Positions 15,575-38,672 of a stretch of DNA of 42,737 nt are shown one piece after another. The notes below the pieces were generated by a model that did no database searches, was not told where the DNA came from, and saw nothing but the letters and a program-made list of their open reading frames with translations. A program made the position numbers and the translations under genes. Source of the DNA: Nanobdellota archaeon (GTDB lineage: Archaea > Nanobdellota > Nanobdellia > Pacearchaeales > GW2011-AR1). The stretch's first letter is position 1; the number at the start of each line of letters is the position of its first letter. The stretch lies in assembly GCA_030611805.1 (NCBI GenBank), contig JAUWPB010000006.1:1-42737 (forward strand). Reading direction: 5' to 3'.

Positions 15575-17446
15575 ATGCAAAAAAAGAGGATAATTTTTAC
15601 AGATTTGGATGGAACCCTGCTTGATGAAAAATATAGTTTTAAAAAAGCCCTACCTGCTTTGAAGATAATAAAAGAACTTGATATACCATTGATTATTTGT
15701 TCAAGCAAAACAAGAGCTGAAATTGAAGTATATAAAAAGAAATTAGATAATGGGCACGCATTTATTTCTGAAAATGGAGGAGCTATTTTTATTCCCTTGG
15801 ATTTTTTTCATAAAAAAAACCATGGAAAATATAAAATAATTGAACTTGGAAAAAAATATAAAAGTTTAATTAGAATTTTTAAAAAAATAAAACAACAAAT
15901 TCCTGTCAAAGGATTTTCAGATATGACAAGCAAAGAATTATCAAAGAATTCCGGGCTTAATTTAAAAGAAGCTAAACTATCTAAAAAAAGAGAATATGAT
16001 GAAGCTTTTATTCTTGAAAATAAAAAAGATGAAAAAAAACTTCTGAAATTAATTAAAAAATATAAATTAAATTATACAAAAGGGGGAAAATACTATCATA
16101 TTTTAGGAGACAATGACAAAGGTAAGGCAGTTAAAATATTATCAAAATTATATAAGAAAAAATACAAGAAAATTTTAACCATTAGTTTGGGTGATGCAAA
16201 AAATGATTTGCCAATGTTAAAATCAACTAATAAAAGTTTTTTTGTTAAAGGTCCGTCTGAATGGAATCAAGATATAATTAAATTATTAAAAATGGACAAC
16301 AAAGAAATAAAAAAAGCCGAAGAGCTTTATAGAGAGAGCATAAATATCTTAAAAAAACTTCAGTTAAAAAACGGGGCTATTTTGGCTTCTTTTCCAAAAG
16401 GACGATATCCTTATATTTACCCAAGAGACCACTCTGTTTGCATACTCGCTTTAATTGAAGCAAGATTATTTACTGAAGCACAAAAAGCATTAAGTTTTAT
16501 TTTAAAAAGTCAGAATAAAGATGGGAGTTTTCCGCAGAGATTAGATAAAAAAGGAAGAGATGCAAGTTACAAACCAATACAATTAGACAATACAGGATTA
16601 ATTTTGTATGCTTTTGCAAGATATATCCTCGAAACTAATGATAAAAAATTCTTAAATAATAATCTAAAAAAAATAAACAAAGCAATTGAATACATAAAAT
16701 CCAAATTAAATAAAAAAAATCTTTTTTTCACACCAAATAGTATTCATGAATTTCCTCCTTATGAAGAAGGTTTAGAGGTTTGGGCAAATGCAACCTGTTA
16801 TGGAGCATTAAAAGAACTTGAATTCATTGGAGTAAAAAATAAAATTGATTTGAATAAAATTAAAAAATCAATAAACAAATATTTATGGAATGGAAAATAC
16901 TTTATAAAAAATATAAGATTAAAAGAATCAAGTTCTGTTGTAGTAGATATTGATGCGAGTTCTTATGCATTGGCTGATTTTAGAGTTTTTAATGATGATA
17001 ATGAAAAAATAAAAAAAACAGTTAGAGAAATAGAGAAGACATTATGGCATAAAAAGTTAGGTGGCATTTGCAGATACAAAAAAGTAATTGGAAGAAACAA
17101 TGGAGGACATGGGCCCTGGCCTCATTTTACATTAATGATTTGCCGACATTTTATAAGATTAGGAAATAAGAAAAAAGCAGATAAATATCTGAACTGGATT
17201 TTAAAAATAGCATATAAAAATAAATTACCTGAACATATTGCATTAAAAAAGGATTTTGAAGAATGGGTTAAAAATTATAAAAAAGCAGGATTATTAAGAA
17301 AAGACAGAAAAATCATGATTAAAAACATAAGAAAAAATAAATTATATAAAAAAGGACTTGCATATTCTGTTTTGCCTCTTGCCTGGCCCCACGCTGAATT
17401 TATCAGAACATGGATTTTATACAAAGAAAAATTTTTATCTAGTTGA
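15575..17446 (+). CDS. Fusion: mannosyl-3-phosphoglycerate phosphatase-like HAD + GH15 glucoamylase-like domain
   Basis: Residues 1-240 are a HAD-IIB phosphatase of the mannosyl-3-phosphoglycerate phosphatase type: FTDLDGTLL (D10, D12), ICSSKTRAEI, FISENGGAIFIP, and ISLGDAKNDLPML (206-214). Residues about 245-620 are an alpha-alpha barrel like GH15 glucoamylases: GRYPYIYPRDHSV, YEEGLEVWANAT with the likely acid glutamate, LPEHI with the likely base, and PLAWPHAEFIRTW. A sugar-phosphate phosphatase joined to a glucoside hydrolase points to turnover of a glucosyl- or mannosyl-linked solute or glucan. The exact substrate is not known. PGI/PMI and gap follow on the same strand. Confidence 0.85.
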   Translation: MQKKRIIFTDLDGTLLDEKYSFKKALPALKIIKELDIPLIICSSKTRAEIEVYKKKLDNGHAFISENGGAIFIPLDFFHKKNHGKYKIIELGKKYKSLIRIFKKIKQQIPVKGFSDMTSKELSKNSGLNLKEAKLSKKREYDEAFILENKKDEKKLLKLIKKYKLNYTKGGKYYHILGDNDKGKAVKILSKLYKKKYKKILTISLGDAKNDLPMLKSTNKSFFVKGPSEWNQDIIKLLKMDNKEIKKAEELYRESINILKKLQLKNGAILASFPKGRYPYIYPRDHSVCILALIEARLFTEAQKALSFILKSQNKDGSFPQRLDKKGRDASYKPIQLDNTGLILYAFARYILETNDKKFLNNNLKKINKAIEYIKSKLNKKNLFFTPNSIHEFPPYEEGLEVWANATCYGALKELEFIGVKNKIDLNKIKKSINKYLWNGKYFIKNIRLKESSSVVVDIDASSYALADFRVFNDDNEKIKKTVREIEKTLWHKKLGGICRYKKVIGRNNGGHGPWPHFTLMICRHFIRLGNKKKADKYLNWILKIAYKNKLPEHIALKKDFEEWVKNYKKAGLLRKDRKIMIKNIRKNKLYKKGLAYSVLPLAWPHAEFIRTWILYKEKFLSS

Positions 17447-18363: not shown

Positions 18364-19344
18364 ATGAAAGTTGCAATTAATGGTCTTGGCAGAATAGGAA
18401 GATTAGTTCTCAAAATTGGATTGGAAAAAGGAATAAAATTTGCAGCGATAAATGATTTAACTGATACCAAAACTCTGGCTTATTTGATGAAGTATGATTC
18501 TGTTTATGGCAATTATGATAAAAAGGTTGAATGTGGAAAAGATTACCTTAAGATTAATGGAAAGAAAATAAAAATCTTGGCTGAGCCGGACCCTGAAAAA
18601 CTTCCCTGGAAAAATCTTGGAGTGGATATAGTAATTGAGTGCACAGGTCGGTTTACTGATAAAAAAGGTGTAAGCAAACACTTAAAAGCTGGTGCAAAAA
18701 AAGTTTTGGTTTCTGCACCCTGCAAAGATTCTGATATTACAATAGTTTTGGGAGTTAATGATAATAAATTGAAAAAAAGTCATAAAATTATTTCTATGGC
18801 ATCCTGCACCACAAATTGCCTTGCGCCAGTTGCCAAAGTTTTAGACGATAGTTTTGGAATTAAAAAAGCTTTTATGACTACAATCCATGCTTACACAAGC
18901 AGCCAGAATATTGTAGACGGACCTCACAAAAAACTAAGAAGAGGCCGGGCAGGCGCATGGAATATTGTTCCGACAACTTCCGGAGCTACAACAGCAACAT
19001 CTGAAATTATCCCAAAGTTAAAAGGGAAAATAAATGGATTAGCGTTTAGAGTTCCTGTAGCTTGTGGGAGCATAGTTGATTTTGTTGCTGAGCTGAATAA
19101 ATCTGTCAAAAAAACCCAGGTAAATAATGCGTTTAAGAAAGCTGCTTCTGGAAAAATGAAAGGAATTTTGCAATATACCGAAGAGGAGTTGGTTAGCAGT
19201 GACATTATCGGGAATTCTCACACAAGTATTGTGGACGGTCTTTCCACTCAGGTTTTAGGAAACACGGTTAAAATTTTATCCTGGTATGATAATGAGTATG
19301 GTTATAGCTGCAAGATTGTTGATATGTTAAAGAGGCTGAAATGA
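18364..19344 (+). CDS. gap: Class I (bacterial-type) glyceraldehyde-3-phosphate dehydrogenase
   Basis: Oxidises glyceraldehyde-3-phosphate to 1,3-bisphosphoglycerate. It has the bacterial/eukaryotic signature ASCTTNCLAP with C148, the base in MTTIHAYTSSQ, NGLGRIGR at the N-terminus and WYDNEYGYS at the end. An Asp after the second strand (INDLTD, D31) favours NAD. Archaea normally carry the distinct class II enzyme, so this gene came from bacteria at some time. A strong Shine-Dalgarno site (AAAGGAGGG) stands 5 bases before the ATG. It overlaps trxB by four bases and forms a gap-trxB-pgk operon. Confidence 0.97.
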   Translation: MKVAINGLGRIGRLVLKIGLEKGIKFAAINDLTDTKTLAYLMKYDSVYGNYDKKVECGKDYLKINGKKIKILAEPDPEKLPWKNLGVDIVIECTGRFTDKKGVSKHLKAGAKKVLVSAPCKDSDITIVLGVNDNKLKKSHKIISMASCTTNCLAPVAKVLDDSFGIKKAFMTTIHAYTSSQNIVDGPHKKLRRGRAGAWNIVPTTSGATTATSEIIPKLKGKINGLAFRVPVACGSIVDFVAELNKSVKKTQVNNAFKKAASGKMKGILQYTEEELVSSDIIGNSHTSIVDGLSTQVLGNTVKILSWYDNEYGYSCKIVDMLKRLK

Positions 19345-20276
19345 TATACAATTTAATAATTCTTGGAGCAGGACCCGGAGGCATGACTGCTGCGATTTAT
19401 GCTGCAAGAAGAAAATTAAAATTTTTGATTGTGAGTTTAGATGTAGGCGGGCAGATGTCGTGGAGTTCTGAGGTCGCAAATTATCCCGGCACAACTCATT
19501 CAACAGGAATTGAATTAACAAAAAACTTTCAGGAGCATTTGAAAGAATACAACATTAAAGTTAAACAGGAGGAAATTATTAAACTCAGTAAAAAGGGAAA
19601 AATATGTATTGTTAAAACAAAAAAGAATGTTTACCAATCTAAGGCAGTTATTATTGCCTCTGGTAAAAGCCCGAGAAAATTAAATGTTCCTGGCGAGGAT
19701 AAATTTGTAGGAAAGGGTGTTAACTATTGCGCGACTTGTGATGCACCTTTTTATAAAAATAAGGTAGTTGCAGTTGTAGGAGGAGGGAATGCTGGTTTAG
19801 AAGCGGTTTTGTTTCTGGCTAAGTATGCAAAAAAGGTTTATCTTCTTGAGTTAAATTTAAAGTTAGGGGGGGAGCCCTATTTGAAAGATAAAGTTTTGCA
19901 GAATAAAAAAATTGCTGTTATAACCGGAGCAAAAACTACAGAGATTATTGGCGATAATTATGTCGCTGGTTTGAAATACGAGCAAGCTGGAAAAGAAAAA
20001 ACATTAAATGTTGGGGGTGTTTTTGTTGAGGTTGGGCTTGTTACAAAAGCTGATTTTACTGACGTGAAAAAAAATAAGTGGGGTGAAATAATGATTTTTA
20101 GAAGTACGAAAACTAATGAAGAAAATATGACAAGTGTTCCCGGGATTTTTGCAGCAGGCGATGTTACTGATATTCCTGCAAAGCAGATAGTTGTTGCAGC
20201 AGGAGAGAGCTGCAAGGCGGCTTTAGCGGCTTTTGATTATATTTACAGGTTTGATAAAACACATGATGGAAAATGA
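19341..20276 (+). CDS. trxB: Thioredoxin reductase
   Basis: A flavoprotein with FAD-binding GAGPGGMTAAIYAARR, the redox disulfide CATC (C130, C133) in NYCATCDAPF, the NADPH-binding VVGGGNAGLEA and the C-terminal FAD motif GIFAAGDVTD. It passes electrons to thioredoxin-like proteins. Length 311 is normal. It stands between gap and pgk with four-base overlaps on both sides, an unusual place; co-expression with the thiol-dependent GAPDH could keep its active cysteine reduced, but that is inference. Confidence 0.95.
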   Translation: MIYNLIILGAGPGGMTAAIYAARRKLKFLIVSLDVGGQMSWSSEVANYPGTTHSTGIELTKNFQEHLKEYNIKVKQEEIIKLSKKGKICIVKTKKNVYQSKAVIIASGKSPRKLNVPGEDKFVGKGVNYCATCDAPFYKNKVVAVVGGGNAGLEAVLFLAKYAKKVYLLELNLKLGGEPYLKDKVLQNKKIAVITGAKTTEIIGDNYVAGLKYEQAGKEKTLNVGGVFVEVGLVTKADFTDVKKNKWGEIMIFRSTKTNEENMTSVPGIFAAGDVTDIPAKQIVVAAGESCKAALAAFDYIYRFDKTHDGK

Positions 20277-21451
20277 AAACTCTATCTTCATTTAATCTAA
20301 AAAATAAAACAGTTCTTTTAAGGACAGATTTAAATTCAAATGTTGTTAATGGCAGAGTATATTTATCTGAGAGAATAAGAGAGTCTGTAATAACTATCAA
20401 AGAACTGAAAAAGAAAAAAGCCAGAGTTGTTGTGATGGCGCATCAGGGAAGACCAAGTAAAAGTGATTTTGTTTCTTTAAGACAGCACGCTAAACATTTA
20501 AATAAATTTGTAAAAGTTAAATTTATAGAGGACATTACAGGAAAGAGAGCAAGAAGTGCGATTAAAAATTTGAGGGCTGGTGAAGTTTTGCTTTTGGAAA
20601 ATATTAGATTTGAAAAAAATGAATTTCATCCTGAAAAAGGAAAAAATAACAAATTGATTAAAAGATTAGCGCCGATGTTTGATTTTTATGTGAATGATGC
20701 TTTTTCTGTCTGCCACAGGAAGCAGACTTCTATTGTAAGTTTTCCTAAATATTTGCCTGGTTGCGCCGGCAGACTTTTGGAGAGAGAATTAAAAGCCCTG
20801 AATAAAATTAAACTAAAAAATACTCTGTATGTTTTAGGGGGCGCTAAACCAGAAGATGATATTAAATTATTAAAAGGAAACAAGGTGCTGGCCTGCGGAT
20901 TATTTGGACAGATTTGTTTAATTGCCAAAGGTAAAAAATTAGGAGCGCAGAATAAATATTTGTTTAATAATGGTTTTGTGGACGATAAATTAATAAAAAG
21001 ATTAAAGAAAAAATTACAAAATGTCAGGACGCCGTTAGATTTCGCAGTTAAAGTTAATGGAAAAAGAAAGGAATTAAAATTAAATGAATTTCCAGTCAAG
21101 TATGAAATTTTTGATATTGGAAAGGATACAATTAAGAATTATGTTTTGGAAATTAAAAAAGCTAAGTCAATTTATATGAAAGGACCTGCTGGTTTTTCAA
21201 GCGATGAGAAATTTTCTAAAGGAACCGTGGAAATTTTAAAAGCAATTGCTAAAAATAAAGGATTTTCTTTAATTGGAGGCGGGCATTTATCTGATACTAT
21301 AAAAAAATATAAAATAAATAAAAAGAAATTTGGACATGTTAGTTTATCAGGAGGGGCTTTGCTTAGATATATTGCAGGGGAGAAACTGCCGGGGTTGGAG
21401 GTTTTGAGGGGCATTGTTAAATTAAAGGGCACGAAGATTATGGAAAACTAA
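20273..21451 (+). CDS. pgk: Phosphoglycerate kinase
   Basis: Makes ATP from 1,3-bisphosphoglycerate. It begins with LKNKTVLLRTDLNSNV (RxDxN substrate motif), then MAHQGRPSK, LLLENIRFEKNE, FYVNDAFSVCHRK and the C-terminal SLIGGGHLSDTIKKY and SLSGGALL glycine loops that bind nucleotide. 392 residues is normal for the family. Its stop is the left border of the GATC-rich insert: the next gene starts 94 bases later behind its own TATA element. Confidence 0.95.
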   Translation: MKTLSSFNLKNKTVLLRTDLNSNVVNGRVYLSERIRESVITIKELKKKKARVVVMAHQGRPSKSDFVSLRQHAKHLNKFVKVKFIEDITGKRARSAIKNLRAGEVLLLENIRFEKNEFHPEKGKNNKLIKRLAPMFDFYVNDAFSVCHRKQTSIVSFPKYLPGCAGRLLERELKALNKIKLKNTLYVLGGAKPEDDIKLLKGNKVLACGLFGQICLIAKGKKLGAQNKYLFNNGFVDDKLIKRLKKKLQNVRTPLDFAVKVNGKRKELKLNEFPVKYEIFDIGKDTIKNYVLEIKKAKSIYMKGPAGFSSDEKFSKGTVEILKAIAKNKGFSLIGGGHLSDTIKKYKINKKKFGHVSLSGGALLRYIAGEKLPGLEVLRGIVKLKGTKIMEN

Positions 21452-21545
21452 TATTTTCTTAACTTTAGAGTTATAAAAATAGAAAGATTTAAAAGGTATT
21501 TTTTTGTCTCAAATTATATAAAAATTATTGTATTTGATATAGAAA

Positions 21546-22757
21546 ATGACTTTTGAAGATCAATTAAAAGAAATTAGAAGAGGAACAGTTGATATCCTCA
21601 CAGAAAATGAACTATTTAGGAAACTGAAAAAAAAAAGACCTCTTAATGTAAAATTTGGGGTTGATCCTACTGCTCCGGACATTCATCTAGGCCATACTGT
21701 TCCATTACGGAAATTAAAGCAATTTCAAGATTTAGGACATAAGACCCAATTGATTATTGGAGATTATACTGCAACGATTGGAGATCCAAGTGGAAGGAGT
21801 GAAACAAGACCTATATTAAATAGAGAAGAAATAGAAAGAAACATGAAGACATATCAAGAACAGGCTTTCAAAATTTTGGATCCAAATAGGACAGAACTAA
21901 TATATAATAGTGTATGGTTAGGACAATTTTCTGGGACTGATATGATTAAATTAGGTTCAAAGTATACAGTTCAACAACTTCTACAAAGAAGAGATTTTAG
22001 AGAAAGAATAAAACAAAATAAACCTTTATCAGTTACTGAATTATTATACCCGCTTCTTGTCGGTTATGATTCTGTACATCTTAAGAGCGATATAGAAATT
22101 GGGGGTACAGACCAATTATTTAATTTTGTGGCAAGCAGAGTGATACAAAAAGCGTATGGTCAAGAACCAGAAGTTATCATAACCCTTCCTTTACTTGAAG
22201 GGGTAGATGGGGTAAAAAAGATGAGTAAAAGTTTAGATAATGCTATAAGTGTTAGTGATAATCCAAATAATATTTATGGAAAAATAATGTCTATATCTGA
22301 TGATTTAATGTTAAGATATTATGAATTATTGTCAGATACATCAATAGAAGAATTACAGGAAATTAAAGAAACTATTACAACCGGGAGTGTAAATCCCATG
22401 AGATATAAACAAAAATTGGCAAGAGAAATAGTTTCTAGATATTATGACAAAGATCATTCTGTGTCTGCTGAAGAAAGATTTAATAGAGTACATAGAAGAA
22501 GAGATATTCCAAATCAATTAGAAGAAGAAGCAATAAGGTATTCTATAGATAGAAAAGGTCTGCCTATTATCAGTATTCTTAAACAAATTGGAAGAGCCAA
22601 ATCTAATAGTGAAGCAAGGAGACTCATAGAGCAAAGAGGGGTAAGATTGGATGGAGAAGTTATAGATGATATTTATTATTCTGTTTCCCCTAAAAATGGT
22701 CAGGTTATCCAAGTTGGAAAAAGATATTTCAAAAAACTGAAATATGAGAGAGATTAA
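21546..22757 (+). CDS. Bacterial (TyrZ)-type tyrosyl-tRNA synthetase, altered amino-group site
   Basis: Full-length class Ic synthetase: HLGH at 47-50, KMSKS at 225-229, the linker and a C-terminal S4 domain (about 340-400, AKSNSEARRLIEQRGVRLDG). The tyrosine-hydroxyl aspartate is kept (YDSV, D175) and GGTDQ is intact. Three residues earlier, where TyrRS has Gln (QGYDS or QAYDS; Gln173 in the Geobacillus enzyme, which holds the alpha-amino group), this protein has V172. Archaea normally use a different TyrRS. It heads a six-gene cluster behind a TATA box (AATTATATAAAA, about 21513). It may be a second TyrRS, or an enzyme activating a tyrosine-like acid without a normal amino group. Confidence 0.9.
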   Translation: MTFEDQLKEIRRGTVDILTENELFRKLKKKRPLNVKFGVDPTAPDIHLGHTVPLRKLKQFQDLGHKTQLIIGDYTATIGDPSGRSETRPILNREEIERNMKTYQEQAFKILDPNRTELIYNSVWLGQFSGTDMIKLGSKYTVQQLLQRRDFRERIKQNKPLSVTELLYPLLVGYDSVHLKSDIEIGGTDQLFNFVASRVIQKAYGQEPEVIITLPLLEGVDGVKKMSKSLDNAISVSDNPNNIYGKIMSISDDLMLRYYELLSDTSIEELQEIKETITTGSVNPMRYKQKLAREIVSRYYDKDHSVSAEERFNRVHRRRDIPNQLEEEAIRYSIDRKGLPIISILKQIGRAKSNSEARRLIEQRGVRLDGEVIDDIYYSVSPKNGQVIQVGKRYFKKLKYERD

Positions 22758-22804
22758 TTTTTTAGAAATAGTTTTATAAATAAGTTTTTATTAATAAAAT
22801 TAAA

Positions 22805-23815
22805 ATGGAACCAAAAGAAAAGTTTAATTTAATAACAAGAAATCTTCAGGAGATAATAACAGAAGAAGAATTAAAATACTTGCTGAAGAAAGAGAAAGAA
22901 ATTTCAGTTTATTGGGGGACTATGCCTACTGGGAGCATATCTGTAGCATACTTTTTTCCAATGTTAAAAATAGCTGATTTTTTAAAGGCCGGGTTAAAGG
23001 TTAAGATATTAATAGCAGATTTGCATGCCGCTTTAAATGGAGTTCCGTGGGAGTTATTAGAAAAGAGAACAGAGTACTATAAAAGAGCAATAGTTCTTAT
23101 TTTAAAAAAAATTGGGGTAGATATTAAAAAACTTGAATTTATTAAAGGAAGTAACATACAACTAAAAGGAAAATATTTTGAGGATGTGTTAAGATTAAGT
23201 ATGATGTCTGGTGTTAGAAATTGTAAAAAAGCTGCATCAGAAGTGGTAAAGATAACAGATAATCCTCGACTTGGGAATCTTATTTATCCTCTAATGCAGG
23301 CGTTAGATGAAGAATACCTAAAAGTACACATTCAATATGCTGGGTTAGATCAAAGGAAAATTATGGTTTATGCAAGGGAGAATCTCCCAAAAATTGGATA
23401 CAAGCCAAGGGTAGAACTAATGTCGCCAATGATTAGAGGACTTGTTGGTGAAAAAATGAGTTCAAGTATAGAAGCTACAAAAATTGATTTGCTTGATAAT
23501 GAAAATAACATCAAGAAAAAGGTAAATGGTGCAGAATGCATCGAAGGAGATGTAAATAATGGAATAATGTCTTTATTAAGATATTTTATCATGATATTAA
23601 AAGAAGACAAAAAAAGTAGTTTCGTTGTTGAAAGACCAGAAAAATTTGGGGAGACTATTAAATATATAAATTATGAAGAGATTGAGAGGGATTTTAAATC
23701 TAAAAAGTTGCATCCCTTGGATTTGAAAAATGCTGTTGCTAAAGAATTGAATATTTTATTAAAAGCTTTTAGGGAAGATAAGGAATTGCTGGATTTGCAT
23801 AAGAAGGCCTATTGA
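22805..23815 (+). CDS. Eukaryote/archaeal-type tyrosyl-tRNA synthetase paralog with changed HIGH motif
   Basis: 336 residues, closely like the catalytic core of animal and archaeal TyrRS: YWGTMPTGSISVAYFFP, ILIADLHAALNG, YPLMQALDEEYLKV, DQRKI, EKMSSSIEATKIDLLD (KMSSS 217-221) and the short C-terminal anticodon domain. Tyrosine-pocket residues Y36, Q165 and D168 are kept. The HIGH-equivalent (HVAY in the human enzyme) reads SVAY (46-49), losing the first His, and the Asp in the KVDAQFGG strand is H175. So ATP handling or substrate choice may differ. It has its own TATA box (TTTTATAAATAAG, about 30 bases upstream), so it may be expressed apart from the gene before it. Confidence 0.85.
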   Translation: MEPKEKFNLITRNLQEIITEEELKYLLKKEKEISVYWGTMPTGSISVAYFFPMLKIADFLKAGLKVKILIADLHAALNGVPWELLEKRTEYYKRAIVLILKKIGVDIKKLEFIKGSNIQLKGKYFEDVLRLSMMSGVRNCKKAASEVVKITDNPRLGNLIYPLMQALDEEYLKVHIQYAGLDQRKIMVYARENLPKIGYKPRVELMSPMIRGLVGEKMSSSIEATKIDLLDNENNIKKKVNGAECIEGDVNNGIMSLLRYFIMILKEDKKSSFVVERPEKFGETIKYINYEEIERDFKSKKLHPLDLKNAVAKELNILLKAFREDKELLDLHKKAY

Positions 23816-23842
23816 TAAAAATGAGATAAAAAAGAGGAAAGA

Positions 23843-24904
23843 ATGAAGAATAAAAAAATTACCTTTGATAGAAAATATTATAGTTCTATTATGAAAGAAT
23901 TTGGTTATAATCCCTTAGAATTTGAAAAAATTAATTTTTCTTTAGGAAATTTAAAAAAAGATGATCTTCAAAGAATGTGGTTATGCCATCATGATGGGAA
24001 TAGTTTTGCTAGAGATTTAGAAAAAGGTAAAAAAATAATCGTGAGTACTGGATTTGGACTTTCTGGAGAACCGCATATAGGGACATTATCTCAGATTTTA
24101 AGATCTATAGCATTACAAAAAGCAGGAATTCCTGTGCAGATTGTTCTAGGAGATTTAGATGCTTATAATGGAAAGACCATTCCTCTAAAAAAGACATTAG
24201 AATTATCAAAAAAATATAGGAGATTTATTTTATCATTAGGTTTTAATAAAAGAAAAGGATCTATTCTTAGAGAACAATATGGGGAGTTAGATGTTTTAAG
24301 GACATCATATATTATCGGACACTTTATGGATGATAAAATGTTTAATGAAGCTGAAGAAGATCTTCACTCTTTTTACCATAAAAGAGGAAAGGTAGACAGA
24401 GAAATGAGTTACAGAAGAAAATTATCTTTAAACCTAATGATTGCAGATTTTATGAACTTATGCTTTGAACACAAATACAGAAATATTTTAGTTATGTTAG
24501 GTATAGACGAACACCAATATATTAGATTTGGTAGAGAAACTATAAGAAGAATGAAAGAAAGTAAACAGTTTGAAAATTTTGATATGACTCTCTCTGCAAT
24601 ATACTCTCCGATGATAAAAGGATTTTTTAATTATCCTAAAATGTCAAAAAGTTTTCCAAAGTCTAGTATCAGTGTTAATATGAATCCTGAACAAATAAAA
24701 CATAGAATAATTTATGGTGAAGGGAAGTATGACAAGCCCGAAAATAATGTAGTTTATCAAATGATGGCTTCTGTAAGTTATTATACTGCAGAAGAAATTA
24801 AAAGATTGTATAAATTATGTTTAAAGGGAGGCTCTGATTGGGAAAAATCAAAAAAAAAGTATGCAGAAATTTTAATAAAAATTTGTTCAAAATGGGAGAA
24901 GTAA
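23843..24904 (+). CDS. TrpRS-like class Ic aminoacyl-tRNA synthetase paralog
   Basis: 353 residues. The Rossmann core has STGFGLSGEPHIGTLSQ (PHIG at 77-80), VLGDLDAYNG, LGIDEHQYIRFGRETIRRM (the counterpart of GIDQDPYFRLTRD in TrpRS) and PKMSKSFPKSSISVNMNPEQIKHRI (KMSKS 266-270), the last strongly TrpRS-like. Elsewhere it departs from genuine TrpRS, and the region 140-200 is unfamiliar. A Shine-Dalgarno-like GAGGAAAG precedes the ATG. It overlaps the TrpD-like gene by 13 bases. It is probably an adenylating enzyme for an aromatic or related acid; tRNA-Trp charging is not excluded. Confidence 0.75.
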   Translation: MKNKKITFDRKYYSSIMKEFGYNPLEFEKINFSLGNLKKDDLQRMWLCHHDGNSFARDLEKGKKIIVSTGFGLSGEPHIGTLSQILRSIALQKAGIPVQIVLGDLDAYNGKTIPLKKTLELSKKYRRFILSLGFNKRKGSILREQYGELDVLRTSYIIGHFMDDKMFNEAEEDLHSFYHKRGKVDREMSYRRKLSLNLMIADFMNLCFEHKYRNILVMLGIDEHQYIRFGRETIRRMKESKQFENFDMTLSAIYSPMIKGFFNYPKMSKSFPKSSISVNMNPEQIKHRIIYGEGKYDKPENNVVYQMMASVSYYTAEEIKRLYKLCLKGGSDWEKSKKKYAEILIKICSKWEK

Positions 24905-26010
24905 AAATTACTAAAAACAATGCAGTTAGTGAAGTTTTATACAGAATTAATGTGCAATCGAAAATAAACTTAAAACTTCTAGGAGAAGCTTTTGATTCTG
25001 TTTTATCTAATCCTAAACAATATGTAAGAGATATCCAACTTGGAGCAATTCTAACTGGAATAATGGCGAGAGGTCCAACAACTGATGAAATTGTAACTTT
25101 GTTGAAATCTGTTTTTAAGTTAGATAAATTTAACCCTAAGAAGAGATATAAAATAAAAATACCTAAGGGAGAACTGTTAATTGGTGCAATAGGTAGCGGA
25201 AAAAAAGGAGTAAAAACTATGAATATCTCAACTCCTGCACTTTTAACTGCTGCAAGTGCCGGAGCATTCACAGCAAAAGTAGTTTCTTGTTCTACAAGTT
25301 CTTTAACTGGTTCTGCAGATTTTTTGCGTGAAGTTGGAATGAATCTCAATCTTTCAATTAAAGAGATGGAAGAAGTAGTAAGCAAAACAAAATTTGGTGC
25401 GTTTACTATAGAAAGTCTTTTACCTAAGTTTAATTCTATTTATGCAAAAAGATTTTATGCTCCACATGCTTTAAGTTTTGGTTTGGCTGCTTTAGCGAGC
25501 CCAATTAAATATGATAATTTCTTATATGGATTAGCTCACCCAAACATAAATCTCTCTATAAATGTGTTAAAAAAATTCGAAATTGAAAATGTAATGGTAG
25601 TTTCTGCAAGTAATGATGGAATACACTACATAGACGAAATGGGGGTTTATGGAATGACTAAGATAAAAGGAATACACAATGGTAAAATTGGATACACAAA
25701 AAAGTTTAATCCTCTAGTTAAATTAAACCTGCCCAAGTATCAATCAAGAGACATTTGCGAAGGAAAAAATAAGAGAGAGAATATAAAGTTGGTTATAGAT
25801 GTTTTAAGAGGAAAAGGTGAAAAAGCAAGGGAAGATATAATTTGTATTAATGCTGGAACAATTCTTTATTTAGCAAGAAAGGCAAAAAACCTTAAAGAAG
25901 GATATATGATCTCTAAAAAAGTTATACAAGAGGGGATTCCATTTAAGAAGTTATTAGAAGTAATCAAGGAAAGTGGTGGTGATGAAAAGAAAATAAAGAG
26001 GTATTTATGA
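24892..26010 (+). CDS. TrpD-like phosphoribosyltransferase (anthranilate phosphoribosyltransferase family)
   Basis: The fold order is that of TrpD: a helical N-terminal domain (GAILTGIMARGPTTDEIV), a PRPP loop, NIST (111-114), SLTGSADFLREVG, and the C-terminal NAGTILYLARKAKNLKEG. The canonical PRPP loop GTGGDG is GAIGSGKKG here (98-106), the HGNR element that meets anthranilate is VVSC, and the RRELG substrate arginines are not preserved. The acid pair (IDE) for the second metal may survive. No other trp genes are near, so anthranilate is an unlikely acceptor. The ATG at 24892 is used; a TTG at 24838 behind a GGGAGG could add 18 residues. It overlaps the previous gene. Confidence 0.8.
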   Translation: MGEVKITKNNAVSEVLYRINVQSKINLKLLGEAFDSVLSNPKQYVRDIQLGAILTGIMARGPTTDEIVTLLKSVFKLDKFNPKKRYKIKIPKGELLIGAIGSGKKGVKTMNISTPALLTAASAGAFTAKVVSCSTSSLTGSADFLREVGMNLNLSIKEMEEVVSKTKFGAFTIESLLPKFNSIYAKRFYAPHALSFGLAALASPIKYDNFLYGLAHPNINLSINVLKKFEIENVMVVSASNDGIHYIDEMGVYGMTKIKGIHNGKIGYTKKFNPLVKLNLPKYQSRDICEGKNKRENIKLVIDVLRGKGEKAREDIICINAGTILYLARKAKNLKEGYMISKKVIQEGIPFKKLLEVIKESGGDEKKIKRYL

Positions 26011-26011
26011 A

Positions 26012-27010
26012 ATGAAAGCAGTAGTTATTTCTAAAAAAAGGAAAATAGAATATAAAGAAATTCCAGAACCTAAATTAAAAAGAGGATATGTTAAAATAAA
26101 GGTAAAAGCAACAGGACTTTGCGGAAGCGATATTCAAAAAATATTTTCTGATAAAAAGGCATTAACTTTAATAAAAACAAATATCTGGGGTCATGAGATT
26201 TCTGGCGTAGTTTATGAAATTGGAAAAAATGTAAAAAAGTTTAGAAAAGGCGATAGAGTAATTATAAATCCTCTTATTAGAAATAAAGAAGATGATAATA
26301 TTACTATGGTTAAGTCTATTGGCAAGGATTTTCCAGGGGGATTTGCAGAATATGTTTTAGTTCCTTATCAAAATTTGAGAAAAATTCCCCAGAAGATAGA
26401 TTTTGAAGAAGCTGTTTTAACAGATAGTATTGCAGTAGCATTACATGGATACCATCTTTCTGGTGCTCCTTCCAACAAAGACATACTAATAATTGGAGAT
26501 GGCTCTCTTGCATTAATTACAAGCCTTATTTGTTTAGAATTCAATAATAAAGTAACCATAATCGGAAAGAATCTTAAAAACCTAGATTTAGCTTCCAATT
26601 TTGGGGCAGATTCTTTAAAAGATAGCCAGATAAAAAATTTGAAGGGAAATTATGATATTATTTTTGAGGTTGTTGGAAGAAGGCAGAATAAAACCTTAAG
26701 AAATGCTATAAGATTCATCAAACCGAATGGTCAGATAGTTGTTTTAGGAGTATTTGAAAAAGGTTTCTATGGAAAAATTCCCTTAAGAGAACTCTTTTAT
26801 AAAGAAGGTAAAATTGTGGGATCAAATTCTTACGGTTTCTTTGATAGAAAAAATGAATTTGATATGGCCATAAATTTATTAAGAAAGATAAAGCCAAAAT
26901 TTTCACAACTCATAACAAATGTAATGCCTCTTAAAGACTTCAAAAGTGGTCTAAATTTGATAAAAAATAAAAAAGATTCCAAAGTTATAAAGATAGTTTT
27001 TAAACCATGA
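26012..27010 (+). CDS. Zinc-dependent MDR (alcohol dehydrogenase-like) oxidoreductase without structural zinc
   Basis: A 332-residue medium-chain dehydrogenase. The catalytic zinc ligands C37 (GLCGSD) and H61/E62 (WGHEISG) are there, as is the GDRVI turn. The four-cysteine structural zinc loop, which usually follows, is missing: NPLIRNKEDDNITMVKS has no cysteine. The cofactor fold has IIGDGSLALITSL. It starts one base after the TrpD-like stop and ends in a four-base overlap with the HAD gene, so it is part of the same unit. It could oxidise a sugar or alcohol group of the product made there. Confidence 0.88.
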   Translation: MKAVVISKKRKIEYKEIPEPKLKRGYVKIKVKATGLCGSDIQKIFSDKKALTLIKTNIWGHEISGVVYEIGKNVKKFRKGDRVIINPLIRNKEDDNITMVKSIGKDFPGGFAEYVLVPYQNLRKIPQKIDFEEAVLTDSIAVALHGYHLSGAPSNKDILIIGDGSLALITSLICLEFNNKVTIIGKNLKNLDLASNFGADSLKDSQIKNLKGNYDIIFEVVGRRQNKTLRNAIRFIKPNGQIVVLGVFEKGFYGKIPLRELFYKEGKIVGSNSYGFFDRKNEFDMAINLLRKIKPKFSQLITNVMPLKDFKSGLNLIKNKKDSKVIKIVFKP

Positions 27011-27639
27011 AAAAAATTAAATGTTTTATATTTGACCAAGACGGAACTTTTTATCCTGAGAACAGCAAACTTACAAATGTATTAAGAGAGAAAACAAAAA
27101 AGTGGTTAATGGGTAAACTTTCTTTAGATAGAAGAGAGGTTGAGAATCTTTATAAAAGACTCCCAAGAAAGTATCCAAATACTTTAGACGGGTTTAGATC
27201 ATTGGGTTTAAATATAAAGGATTATCATAGAAATGTTTTTGATATTATAAATCCCTCAGAATATTTATCACAAGATGAGAATCTAATTTCCATATTAAAA
27301 AAATTAAAGAGAAATAGATTTGTAGTAACATTCGCATCAAAAAAATATTCAAAGTCTTTACAAAAAACATTAGGAATAAATAATCTCATCAAACAAACAT
27401 ATTCTTTAATTGATTTCTTTCCCAAAACCTCTAAACTGCATGCATATGAATATATAAGAAAAAACAATAACTTAAATAGGAAAGATATCTGCATCGTGGG
27501 CAATAATCTAGAAGTAGATTTAATTCCTGCATTAAATAAGGGGTATAAAACAATTTTAATTGGTGCTTCTACAAAAAAATTTAAAGTTAAATCAATCCAA
27601 AATATACAGGGATTGTCGGCGGTTTGTGATGGCATTTAA
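27007..27639 (+). CDS. HAD phosphatase of the pyrimidine 5'-nucleotidase type
   Basis: 210 residues. FIFDQDGTFYP carries the nucleophile D10 and acid/base D12. The following region (KLSLDRREVENLYKRLPRKY, NTLDGFRSLGLNIKDYHRNVFDI) closely follows the SDT1-like nucleotidase cap, motif II is in VTFASKKY, and motif IV is GNNLEVDLIPA with the metal aspartate. It would remove phosphate from a 5'-nucleotide-like product, a fitting partner for the phosphoribosyltransferase two genes upstream. It ends the six-gene cluster. Confidence 0.85.
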   Translation: MKKIKCFIFDQDGTFYPENSKLTNVLREKTKKWLMGKLSLDRREVENLYKRLPRKYPNTLDGFRSLGLNIKDYHRNVFDIINPSEYLSQDENLISILKKLKRNRFVVTFASKKYSKSLQKTLGINNLIKQTYSLIDFFPKTSKLHAYEYIRKNNNLNRKDICIVGNNLEVDLIPALNKGYKTILIGASTKKFKVKSIQNIQGLSAVCDGI

Positions 27640-27798
27640 GTTAAAGTAATTTCAATTAGTTATAATTTTAGAAATTTTAATCAAATTTAACTACTTCTTA
27701 AGTTTTCTATAGCGAGTGTGCCAAAATTTATTTCACTTAATATTTAAGCAAGGTTTATTAATTATGTTTCTTTTATAAATTAAGAAAAGGAGATTAAA
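27640..27798. promoter_or_regulatory. Intergenic region with pfkB promoter
   Basis: No gene seen. TATA-like stretches (GTTTATTAA and TTTTATAAATT) and a Shine-Dalgarno site AAGGAGAT lie just before the pfkB ATG at 27799. This is also the right border of the GATC-rich block. I found no direct repeat with the left border. Confidence 0.4.
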
Positions 27799-28704
27799 AT
27801 GTTTGACATAATAAGTTTTGGGAGCGCTGTGGTTGATGTCTTTGCAGGCACAGATATTCCGGAAAAAAAGAAATGCATTGCTTATCCAGTGGGTTCCAAA
27901 ATTTTAATAAAGGATTTGAAATTTGATATTGGTGGAGGTGGAACTAATACGGCTGTTGCGTTCTCCAGACTTGGATTAAAAACAGGTTTCATAGGCAAAA
28001 TTGGCGACGATAAACAGGGGCAGGAAATTCTGAACCTCTTAAAAAAAGAAAAAATAAAATTTCTTGGAAAGATTGAGAGTAGAGCAAATAGTGGATATTC
28101 CATTATTCTGGATAGTAGGGAAAAAAACAGAACTATTCTGACTTACAAAGGAATAAATAATGAATTCAGATTTTCTGAACTTAATTTGAGAAAAATAAAA
28201 ACAAGATGGTTATATTTGTCTTCTTTATTAGGCGAGAGTTTTAAGACTCAAAAAAAGCTTGCCGGAATTTTGCATAAAAAGGGCGTAAAAATAGCTTATA
28301 ACCCCAGCGAATATATAATCAGGAAATACAGGAAAAAGAAATTATCTGAAATCTTAAAGTTATGTGATGTTTTAATATTAAATAAAGATGAAGCTAAGCT
28401 TTTGGTTTTGGAAAAAGATTTATTAAAAGGGTTGCGAAATCTTGGAGCGAAAATTGTTGTAATTACTGACAAAAATAAATTAATTAGTTGTTTTGACGGG
28501 GAGAAAAAATATTATTTAAAGCCGCATAAAATTAAAGTAGTAGAAAGAACCGGGGCAGGAGATGCATTTGCTTCAGGATTTGTTGCCGGGCAGGTTGCTG
28601 AAAAAAATATTATGGAAAGTTTAAAACTTGGATTAAGTGAAAGCGAGAGTGTAATTAAATATTTTGGAGCAAAAAATAAATTGTTGAGGCTGAAATTGAG
28701 ATGA
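27799..28704 (+). CDS. PfkB/ribokinase family sugar kinase
   Basis: 301 residues with the N-terminal GSAVVDVFAG and GGGGTNTAVAFSRLGLKTGFIGKIGDDKQG signature and the C-terminal TGAGDAFASGFVAGQV, whose Asp is the catalytic base. It sits at the head of an operon with aldolase and triosephosphate isomerase, so a phosphofructokinase role (fructose-6-phosphate to the bisphosphate) is the natural reading, though ribokinase or another sugar kinase is not ruled out by sequence. It has a strong Shine-Dalgarno site and overlaps the aldolase start by four bases. Confidence 0.88.
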   Translation: MFDIISFGSAVVDVFAGTDIPEKKKCIAYPVGSKILIKDLKFDIGGGGTNTAVAFSRLGLKTGFIGKIGDDKQGQEILNLLKKEKIKFLGKIESRANSGYSIILDSREKNRTILTYKGINNEFRFSELNLRKIKTRWLYLSSLLGESFKTQKKLAGILHKKGVKIAYNPSEYIIRKYRKKKLSEILKLCDVLILNKDEAKLLVLEKDLLKGLRNLGAKIVVITDKNKLISCFDGEKKYYLKPHKIKVVERTGAGDAFASGFVAGQVAEKNIMESLKLGLSESESVIKYFGAKNKLLRLKLR

Positions 28705-29453
28705 AAATAAAATTAAATAAAATTTTGAAAAAAGGCAGGGCTATGTTTTTAGCTTATGATCAGGGGATGGAGCATGGCCCTACAGATTTTAATGATAAGA
28801 ATGTTAATCCGGAATATATTCTCCGGATTGCAAAAAAAGGAAAGTTTACGGGTTTGATTTTTCAAAAAGGAATTGCTGAAAAATATCAGAGCAAAATAAA
28901 AAAGAGCGGCGTGCCATTGATTGTTAAGTTGAATGGAAAGACGAACTTAGTTAAAAGTGAGCCAGTATCCCGGCAATTATGTTCTGTGGATGAAGCAGTG
29001 AATCTCGGGGCTGTTGCAGTTGGTTATACTATTTATATTGGAAGTGTTTTTGAGAAAGAGATGTTAACTGAGTTTGAGAAGATTCGGGGAGAGGCGCGCA
29101 AGAAAGGTCTGCCTGTTATTGTCTGGATTTACCCTCGGGGAAAGGGAGTTAAGGGGAAAAAGAAAAAAGATTTGATGGCGTATGCTGCGCGGGTGGGGTT
29201 GGAGATTGGAGCAGACATAGTTAAGATTCAATCAACCGGAAAAAAAACTGATATTGAGTGGGCAGTTGAATCAGCGGGGAAATGCAAGGTTGTTTTGGCT
29301 GGCGGGAAAAAGAGAAGCGAGAAGGAATTACTAAATGAGATTAAAGACGCTGTTAATGCGGGGTGCGCTGGAATTGCTATCGGAAGGAATATCTGGCAAA
29401 ATAAAAAACCTCTGGAAATTACAAATAAAATTAAAAAAATAATTTTCAAATGA
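28701..29453 (+). CDS. Archaeal-type class I fructose-bisphosphate aldolase
   Basis: Belongs to the DhnA/FbaB family. FLAYDQGMEHGPTDF is the N-terminal signature, VIVWIYPRGKGV lies mid-way and ADIVKIQSTG has the Schiff-base lysine. VVLAGGKKRSEKE and GIAIGRNIWQ bind phosphate. It cleaves fructose-1,6-bisphosphate. 250 residues is close to the 260-280 of the family. Some family members act in aromatic or autoinducer metabolism, but flanking pfkB and tpi make the glycolytic role likely. Confidence 0.92.
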   Translation: MKIKLNKILKKGRAMFLAYDQGMEHGPTDFNDKNVNPEYILRIAKKGKFTGLIFQKGIAEKYQSKIKKSGVPLIVKLNGKTNLVKSEPVSRQLCSVDEAVNLGAVAVGYTIYIGSVFEKEMLTEFEKIRGEARKKGLPVIVWIYPRGKGVKGKKKKDLMAYAARVGLEIGADIVKIQSTGKKTDIEWAVESAGKCKVVLAGGKKRSEKELLNEIKDAVNAGCAGIAIGRNIWQNKKPLEITNKIKKIIFK

Positions 29454-30076
29454 AACCAATTATTGTAATAAATTTTAAAACTTATAAGCAGGGAAAAAAT
29501 GCAATCAAGTTAGCGAAAGTTACAGAGAAAATTGATAAGAAAATTATAGTTGGGGTGCAGGCAGGTGATGTTTGTGAGATTGCAAAGAAAACTAAATTAA
29601 AAGTTTATGCCCAGCATGTTGATTATTTCAAGCCCGGAAGACATACCGGCTATGTTTTACCTGAAGCTGTTAAGGCTGACGGGGCTAAAGGTACTTTTTT
29701 AAATCATTCTGAACACAAGTTAAAATTCAGAGTTTTAAAAAAAACAATTAAAAGATGCAGGAAAATCGGACTTAAAACTTTAATATTTGCTTCTTCTCTG
29801 AAAGAGGCAAAAAAAATCCAGAGATTAGAGCCGGATTATCTTGTAATTGAACCGCCGGAATTAGTGGCAGGAAAAGTTTCTGTTTCCAAATCTAAACCTG
29901 AGTTGATTCAGGAAATTGCCAAGAAACTCAAAGTTAAGTTTTTGATTGGGGCAGGAATAAAAAGCAGAGAAGATATTAAGATTGCGATGAAACTTGGAGC
30001 ATCAGGAATTGCAATAAGCAGCGCAATTACTAAAGCTAAAAATCCAGGGCAGAAATTAAGAGAATTATTTGGTTAA
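29450..30076 (+). CDS. tpiA: Archaeal-type triosephosphate isomerase
   Basis: 208 residues, the short archaeal form. VINFKTYKQG carries the first catalytic residues (Asn, Lys), the electrophilic His is in TFLNHSEHK, and the base glutamate is in YLVIEPPELVAGK; GAGIKSREDI and GASGIAISSAI form the phosphate loops. It overlaps the aldolase stop by four bases. It meets the NnrD gene tail to tail with no spacer. Confidence 0.95.
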   Translation: MKPIIVINFKTYKQGKNAIKLAKVTEKIDKKIIVGVQAGDVCEIAKKTKLKVYAQHVDYFKPGRHTGYVLPEAVKADGAKGTFLNHSEHKLKFRVLKKTIKRCRKIGLKTLIFASSLKEAKKIQRLEPDYLVIEPPELVAGKVSVSKSKPELIQEIAKKLKVKFLIGAGIKSREDIKIAMKLGASGIAISSAITKAKNPGQKLRELFG

Positions 30077-38599: not shown

Positions 38600-38672
38600 G
38601 TCTCAGTAGCTCAGTTGGTAGAGCGAACGGCTGTTAACCGTTAGGTCAGAGGTTCGAGTCCTCTCTGAGACG
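38600..38672 (+). tRNA. tRNA-Asn (GTT)
   Basis: Clover leaf: acceptor GTCTCAG/CTGAGAC with discriminator G, D-arm GCTC...GAGC, anticodon stem AACGG/CCGTT with loop CTGTTAA (anticodon GTT), variable AGGTC, T-arm AGAGG TTCGAGT CCTCT. No intron and CCA is not encoded. A T-run (TTTTTT) follows. The G1-C72 pair is the form expected of archaeal tRNA-Asn. With AspRS and GatCAB in the same window it would be charged via Asp-tRNA(Asn). Confidence 0.97.

Follow-up and report, generated by a model that had tools for sequence, protein, structure and literature searches.

A bacterial-type tyrosyl-tRNA synthetase paralog in a Nanobdellota archaeon probably works in a horizontally spread biosynthetic gene cluster

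What does a bacterial-type tyrosyl-tRNA synthetase (TyrRS) with an altered substrate pocket do in an archaeon? This question is raised by one gene of the window, the 42,737-nucleotide stretch of DNA analysed here. The gene (21546..22757, + strand) encodes a 403-residue TyrZ-type TyrRS-like protein with intact HLGH and KMSKS motifs, an S4 domain, and a Gln-to-Val replacement at position 172. Because the frame is open through 403 codons and the motifs are intact, a broken or frameshifted gene is ruled out. The protein comprises tRNA-synt_1b and S4 domains, matches the TIGR00234 tyrS model over its full length (359.5 bits, cut-off 113.8), and is 53% identical to a housekeeping TyrZ; its best solved relatives are the TyrZ-type structures 6byq, 6bqy, and 1h3e, the last of these from Thermus.

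The sequence-only reading had placed Val172 (codon 22059..22061, + strand) in the column of the glutamine that binds the substrate α-amine while the hydroxyl-binding Asp is kept, and alignment with TyrZ-type enzymes bears out both points. The segment LLYPLLVGYDS, which retains the phenol-binding Asp, aligns without gaps to the QGYDS/QAYDS segments of the three structures, so Val172 occupies the Gln column and a misalignment is ruled out. That column holds Gln in all 61 of the housekeeping TyrZ-type sequences compared, which represent Acidobacteriota, the phylum of Clostridium beijerinckii, C. beijerinckii itself, and the Acidobacteriaceae host of a related cluster; the position is therefore not naturally variable in TyrZ-type enzymes, and the window protein departs from the YxxxQxxD motif of the housekeeping family.

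The further step from a lost glutamine to lost recognition of the α-amine fared less well. In Methanocaldococcus jannaschii TyrRS, the substrate amine is contacted by the side chains of Tyr151, Gln155, and Gln173 (PMC10322718); the window protein lacks only the first Gln and keeps the tyrosine (Y168) and the second Gln (Q190), that is, two of the three contact residues. In two housekeeping bacterial tryptophanyl-tRNA synthetases (TrpRSs), the column holds Met (YPVLMAAD and YPALMAAD; Gln is found in GDRPTG-type TrpRSs), yet both charge Trp, so a hydrophobic residue here is compatible with an α-amino acid. Since the column is invariant in housekeeping TyrZ and the protein is a member of a specialised, non-housekeeping lineage, its substrate has likely changed from that of TyrRS, but Val or Met at position 172 may reflect a substrate whose side chain is larger or different just as well as one with an altered amine. 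The safe reading is of a pocket that appears remodelled, rather than of amine recognition proven lost. A structure model of the protein was only moderate (pLDDT 59, with three sequences in the alignment), and we therefore make no claim about pocket geometry.

The gene cluster around the protein, overlooked in the earlier reading, is stronger evidence than Val172 alone. The window, contig C6, belongs to a 0.85 Mb genome that has an archaeal-type TyrRS on contig C21, carrying the segment YPLMQAAD, and a TrpRS on contig C27; with a third TyrRS-like gene at 22805, the TyrZ-like protein is neither the sole TyrRS encoded there nor the principal one. Among 55 related genomes, none yielded a further bacterial-type TyrRS; the matches there are weak, archaeal in type, and mostly 24-34% identical. 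Given the host's own archaeal TyrRS and this absence from its relatives, lateral acquisition of an additional copy is, as far as these comparisons go, the best reading of the TyrZ-like gene. No match to the host tRNA-Tyr was obtained in a pattern search, a result that carries no information on whether this tRNA is present.

The TyrZ-like gene is the first of a six-gene unit (21546-27639, all on the + strand) that sits inside an archaeal glycolytic cluster. It is followed by an archaeal/eukaryotic-type TyrRS-like gene (22805..23815), a divergent TrpRS-like gene (TrpRSL, 23843..24904), a TrpD-like gene (TrpDL, 24892..26010, with an alternative TTG start possible at 24838), a zinc-dependent dehydrogenase of the ADH family (26012..27010), and a HAD-family phosphatase similar to pyrimidine 5'-nucleotidases (27007..27639). 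Spacing inside the unit is at most 47 bp or negative, and at the ends it is 94 bp, after the phosphoglycerate kinase gene of the glycolytic cluster (20273..21451, +), and 159 bp, before a PfkB-family sugar kinase gene (27799..28704, +) that precedes aldolase and archaeal triose-phosphate isomerase genes. GC3 tends to be somewhat lower in the unit than in most glycolytic neighbors. The window's sole tRNA is a tRNA-Asn at 38600, and positions 19000-30000 gave no Rfam matches. Upstream of these genes, 15575-17446 holds one 623-residue ORF with an N-terminal HAD domain (Hydrolase_3) and a weak C-terminal part like glycoside hydrolase family 15.

Several of the partner proteins are themselves altered. 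The second TyrRS (336 residues) keeps the pocket motif YxxxQxxD and is 65% identical to the TyrRS of a family member, which has HISY at the HIGH region; its own HIGH region is SVAY, where the closest relatives read HISY or HVGY. Two of these relatives lie in unrelated gene surroundings, and the place of this gene in the unit is therefore not ancestral. TrpRSL has counterparts in two other archaea, at 64% and 55% identity, and its structure model is good (pLDDT 87.6), with TrpRSs as the best structural matches. KMSKS is invariant in 10 of 10 TrpRSL proteins, and GxDQ is changed to GxDE (the form in the window) or GxEE, with the archaeal QAAD becoming MIAD in the window; altered amino-acid pockets are thus common to the synthetase-like proteins of the cluster. 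TrpDL resembles anthranilate phosphoribosyltransferase (TrpD) in a whole-length profile match to solved members of that family (E 1e-39) and in the NIST, SSxxGSAD, and DE motifs. It differs in its GSGKK loop, which replaces GTGGD, in the loss of the anthranilate motif KHGNR, and in the scores of both members tested, which fall below the TIGR01245 trpD cut-off. With the loop changed and KHGNR gone, phosphoribosyl transfer by TrpDL is uncertain.

How widely this combination of genes occurs was apparent from a genome scan queried with the TrpD-like alignment, which identified ten loci: in the two other archaea with the TrpRSL proteins compared above, C. beijerinckii HUN142, an Acidobacteriaceae metagenome-assembled genome (MAG), two Patescibacteria, and four gut Bacilli/Tenericutes MAGs. 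A scan queried with the TrpRS-like protein alone gave no match. Across distant phyla, each locus of sufficient length carries TrpRSL together with TrpDL, and besides this core the clusters usually hold an oxidoreductase and a HAD phosphatase, a co-occurrence that suggests that the genes form one pathway. One subtype (archaea, Clostridium, and Acidobacteriaceae) has the zinc dehydrogenase and usually a TyrZ-like gene, and the other (gut Bacilli and Patescibacteria) carries an NTP_transf_5 protein and a further TrpRS marked by a GDRPTG-HLGH signature, together with aldo/keto reductase and HAD proteins at the loci inspected. Glycosyltransferase, radical SAM, methyltransferase, and ABC transporter genes lie near other clusters. 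The cluster is found in 3 of 371 archaeal relatives, counting the window's own genome, and in bacterial samples of 380 and 295 genomes it appears only in the starting genome of each. Such wide but sparse occurrence points to horizontal spread. Viral contigs contain no relatives of the cluster proteins, and plasmid and phage collections yielded either nothing or distant TrpD-type matches (≈25-32% identity among the matches listed), which rules out a phage or known plasmid as carrier.

Individual loci show features of their own. Within the stretch examined, the Woesearchaeota cluster (L036) lacks a TyrZ-like gene; beside it lie a peptidase S51 gene (L036:5570-6235, +) and a gene for a 369-residue protein (L036:6238-7347, -), which was rejected as a further synthetase for want of a convincing family match. 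In the genome concerned (G150, 96% complete), the only PF00579/archaeal-TyrRS match is the cluster TrpRS-like gene, and neither a housekeeping TyrRS nor a housekeeping TrpRS was found, reflecting either missing contigs or real absence. A B3/4 domain (PF03483, E 2e-29) is fused in frame before TyrRS in a Tenericutes MAG (L054:1243-3201, -), and a weak one, below the family cut-off, precedes TrpRS in archaeon G382 (L072:604-2406, +); these parts might be editing domains. Four loci share a conserved minus-strand pair (L044:6141-8371, L043:6064-8305, L042:6585-8782, and L047:5997-8246) that encodes a P-loop protein, HPr-kinase-like by eye and lacking a Pfam match, and an NTP_transf_5 nucleotidyltransferase. 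Pairs resembling this one are known from lasso-peptide clusters. A 168-residue ORF (L037:4248-4754, -) is by eye similar to the radical SAM protein at L039:14595-15506 over that protein's C-terminal half and is perhaps a fragment of a disrupted radical SAM gene. No tRNA-Tyr dedicated to the clusters was detected, nor a recurrent tRNA adjoining those outside the window; in one gut Bacilli MAG, a tRNA-Trp (L044:11248-11321, +) directly follows the TrpD-like gene, an arrangement absent beside the other clusters.

TyrZ-like genes belong to four clusters, those of the window, archaeon G382, the Acidobacteriaceae MAG, and C. beijerinckii. All four have lost the glutamine at position 172: the window protein has Val, and the others have Met in MAYPLIMARDS (G382), LEYALYMAYDS (Acidobacteriaceae), and LEYALFMGYDS (C. 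beijerinckii), the housekeeping TyrZ of C. beijerinckii itself keeping Gln (FFYPLMQGYDS). All four also share E147 changed to Q, G197 changed to S or C, and H164 changed to T or A, and all retain KMSKS or KISKS. The other three are strongly diverged, without an S4 domain detectable by Pfam, and one lacks the first His of HIGH. Maximum-likelihood analysis groups the window protein with those of Acidobacteriaceae and C. beijerinckii in one clade (87/82) and gives G382 a very long branch; a single clade of all four is not rejected (p-AU 0.84). The C. beijerinckii gene is linked to its cluster through a contig end only, the 31.5 kb contig carrying the TyrZ-like, dehydrogenase, and glycosyltransferase genes at one end and TrpRSL, TrpDL, and HAD genes at the other, in the same direction. 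With no terminal overlap, a circular contig has no support, and that the two ends join into one operon can only be inferred. On the aligned residues, the change at position 172 is a property of the cluster and more than chance, and Val/Met172, Gln147, and Ser/Cys197 are a clear signature separating these enzymes, which current family models call tyrosine--tRNA ligases, from true TyrRS.

Taken with the gene neighborhood, these features suggest that the TyrZ-derived paralog probably no longer serves translation and instead acts within a biosynthetic cluster that has spread horizontally. As with other synthetases of biosynthetic clusters, it is accompanied by a separate housekeeping TyrRS, in its own genome (G000) as well as in G382, G403, and G404, and its gene is located with TrpD-like, dehydrogenase, and HAD genes. 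The protein would still form an acyl-adenylate from an aromatic or related amino acid, which its HIGH and KMSKS motifs favor, and would pass the acyl group to a small molecule, directly or via tRNA, as the synthetase paralogs SbzA and AcmF do. The TrpD-like protein suggests a ribosylated product. More speculatively, this enzyme might add a phosphoribosyl group to the same small molecule, the HAD enzyme might then remove the phosphate, and the dehydrogenase might oxidise the ribosylated molecule, giving what would hypothetically be an aminoacylated riboside-like product; the order of ribosylation, dephosphorylation, oxidation, and aminoacylation we infer from family names only. Against this explanation, tRNA binding may persist in the window copy, whose S4 domain is still recognisable and whose sequence is 53% identical to that of a housekeeping TyrZ. 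We found no product or enzyme of the TrpRSL and TrpDL cluster type among the open-access papers searched. A broader proposal, to which we give somewhat less than even weight, is an undescribed small-molecule pathway common to archaea and bacteria, with a core derived from TrpRS and TrpD and a third, variable synthetase-derived module that is TyrRS-like or an extra TrpRS and possibly yields different aminoacylated ribosides in each host.

The same observations can be read in other ways. The retained HIGH, KMSKS, phenol-binding Asp, and S4 domain, and a TIGR00234 score far above the cut-off, are what an ordinary acquired bacterial TyrZ would show if it served as a backup for charging tRNA-Tyr and tolerated the Gln-to-Val change. 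We consider this very improbable, since housekeeping relatives invariably have Gln, three other clusters with the same core have changed the same position, the host already has an archaeal TyrRS, and the gene context is conserved across phyla. It is also improbable, to a slightly lesser degree, that the TyrZ-like and TrpRS-like proteins are noncatalytic regulatory or structural subunits controlling the TrpD-like transferase. HisZ, a HisRS paralog, does regulate a phosphoribosyltransferase, HisG (PMC9437257), and the synthetase paralogs here adjoin a phosphoribosyltransferase homologue, but the invariant KMSKS of TrpRSL and the KMSKS or KISKS of all four TyrZ-like proteins suggest that nucleotide chemistry is retained.

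The main rival is self-resistance, in which the cluster product would inhibit TyrRS or TrpRS, the extra synthetases would be insensitive copies that protect the producer, and Val or Met at the Gln position would weaken inhibitor binding; we regard it as unlikely, if less so than the other two. Such a copy must charge the host tRNA-Tyr, and a bacterial TyrZ is an odd choice in an archaeon because the identity elements of tRNA-Tyr differ between bacteria and archaea. The marked divergence of the other TyrZ-like proteins, with S4 undetected and one HIGH His missing, also argues against it. Nevertheless, producers of indolmycin, mupirocin, and albomycin carry second synthetase copies (PMC9437257), and in two genomes gut Bacilli clusters have an extra TrpRS beside the housekeeping one. 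In IleRS2, hyper-resistance results from a changed HIGH motif (PMC10485003), as may be compared with SVAY in the window's second TyrRS, and S51 peptidases, one of which is encoded near the L036 cluster, can confer immunity to aminoacyl-nucleotide compounds (PMC9239234). For the second TyrRS and the additional TrpRS copies, self-resistance may well be the explanation; it fits them better than the TyrZ-like protein.

A biosynthetic role for the TyrZ-like protein can be set against known systems. One host of the cluster belongs to a cultured genus (C. beijerinckii), and a product that mimics an aminoacyl-nucleotide could be a new synthetase inhibitor. The protein resembles the TyrZ-type TyrRSs 1h3e, 6byq, and 6bqy in whole-length homology, HIGH and KMSKS, and the pocket Tyr, Asp, and second Gln, and differs from them in Val or Met for Gln172, in the E147Q, H164T/A, and G197S/C changes of the cluster proteins, in not being its genome's only TyrRS, and in its clustering with TrpRSL and TrpDL. 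Cyclodipeptide synthases, which have a short catalytic domain without HIGH or KMSKS, use ready-made aminoacyl-tRNA; the window protein, unlike them, has 403 residues, both motifs, and a full-length TIGR00234 match. Their catalytic fold, related to TyrRS and TrpRS, is nevertheless used in natural-product synthesis (PMC12945691). SbzA, an IleRS-like aminoacyl transferase of SB-203208 biosynthesis, moves the aminoacyl group from tRNA to a small molecule and retains weak tRNA charging (PMC6331615). Like the window protein, it is a paralog of a class I synthetase, is encoded among biosynthetic genes, exists alongside a separate housekeeping synthetase, and keeps HIGH and KMSKS, with modifications; unlike it, SbzA derives from IleRS (class Ia) and acts on a sulfonamide, and the available text of that report describes no TrpD-like partner. 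AcmF, an AlaRS-like paralog from ascamycin biosynthesis that aminoacylates a nucleoside sulfamate (PMC12945691), offers the analogy proposed here of a nucleoside-type small molecule as acceptor, but has a class II fold unrelated to TyrRS and TrpRS. A 2022 review table of duplicated synthetases lists no function outside aminoacylation for a TyrRS or TrpRS paralog and treats cyclodipeptide synthases separately (PMC9437257). The cluster supplies two TyrRS/TrpRS paralog lineages of a kind absent from that table, and theirs, if our reading is true, would be the first natural-product role, going by the reviews consulted, for TyrRS/TrpRS paralogs that keep HIGH and KMSKS.
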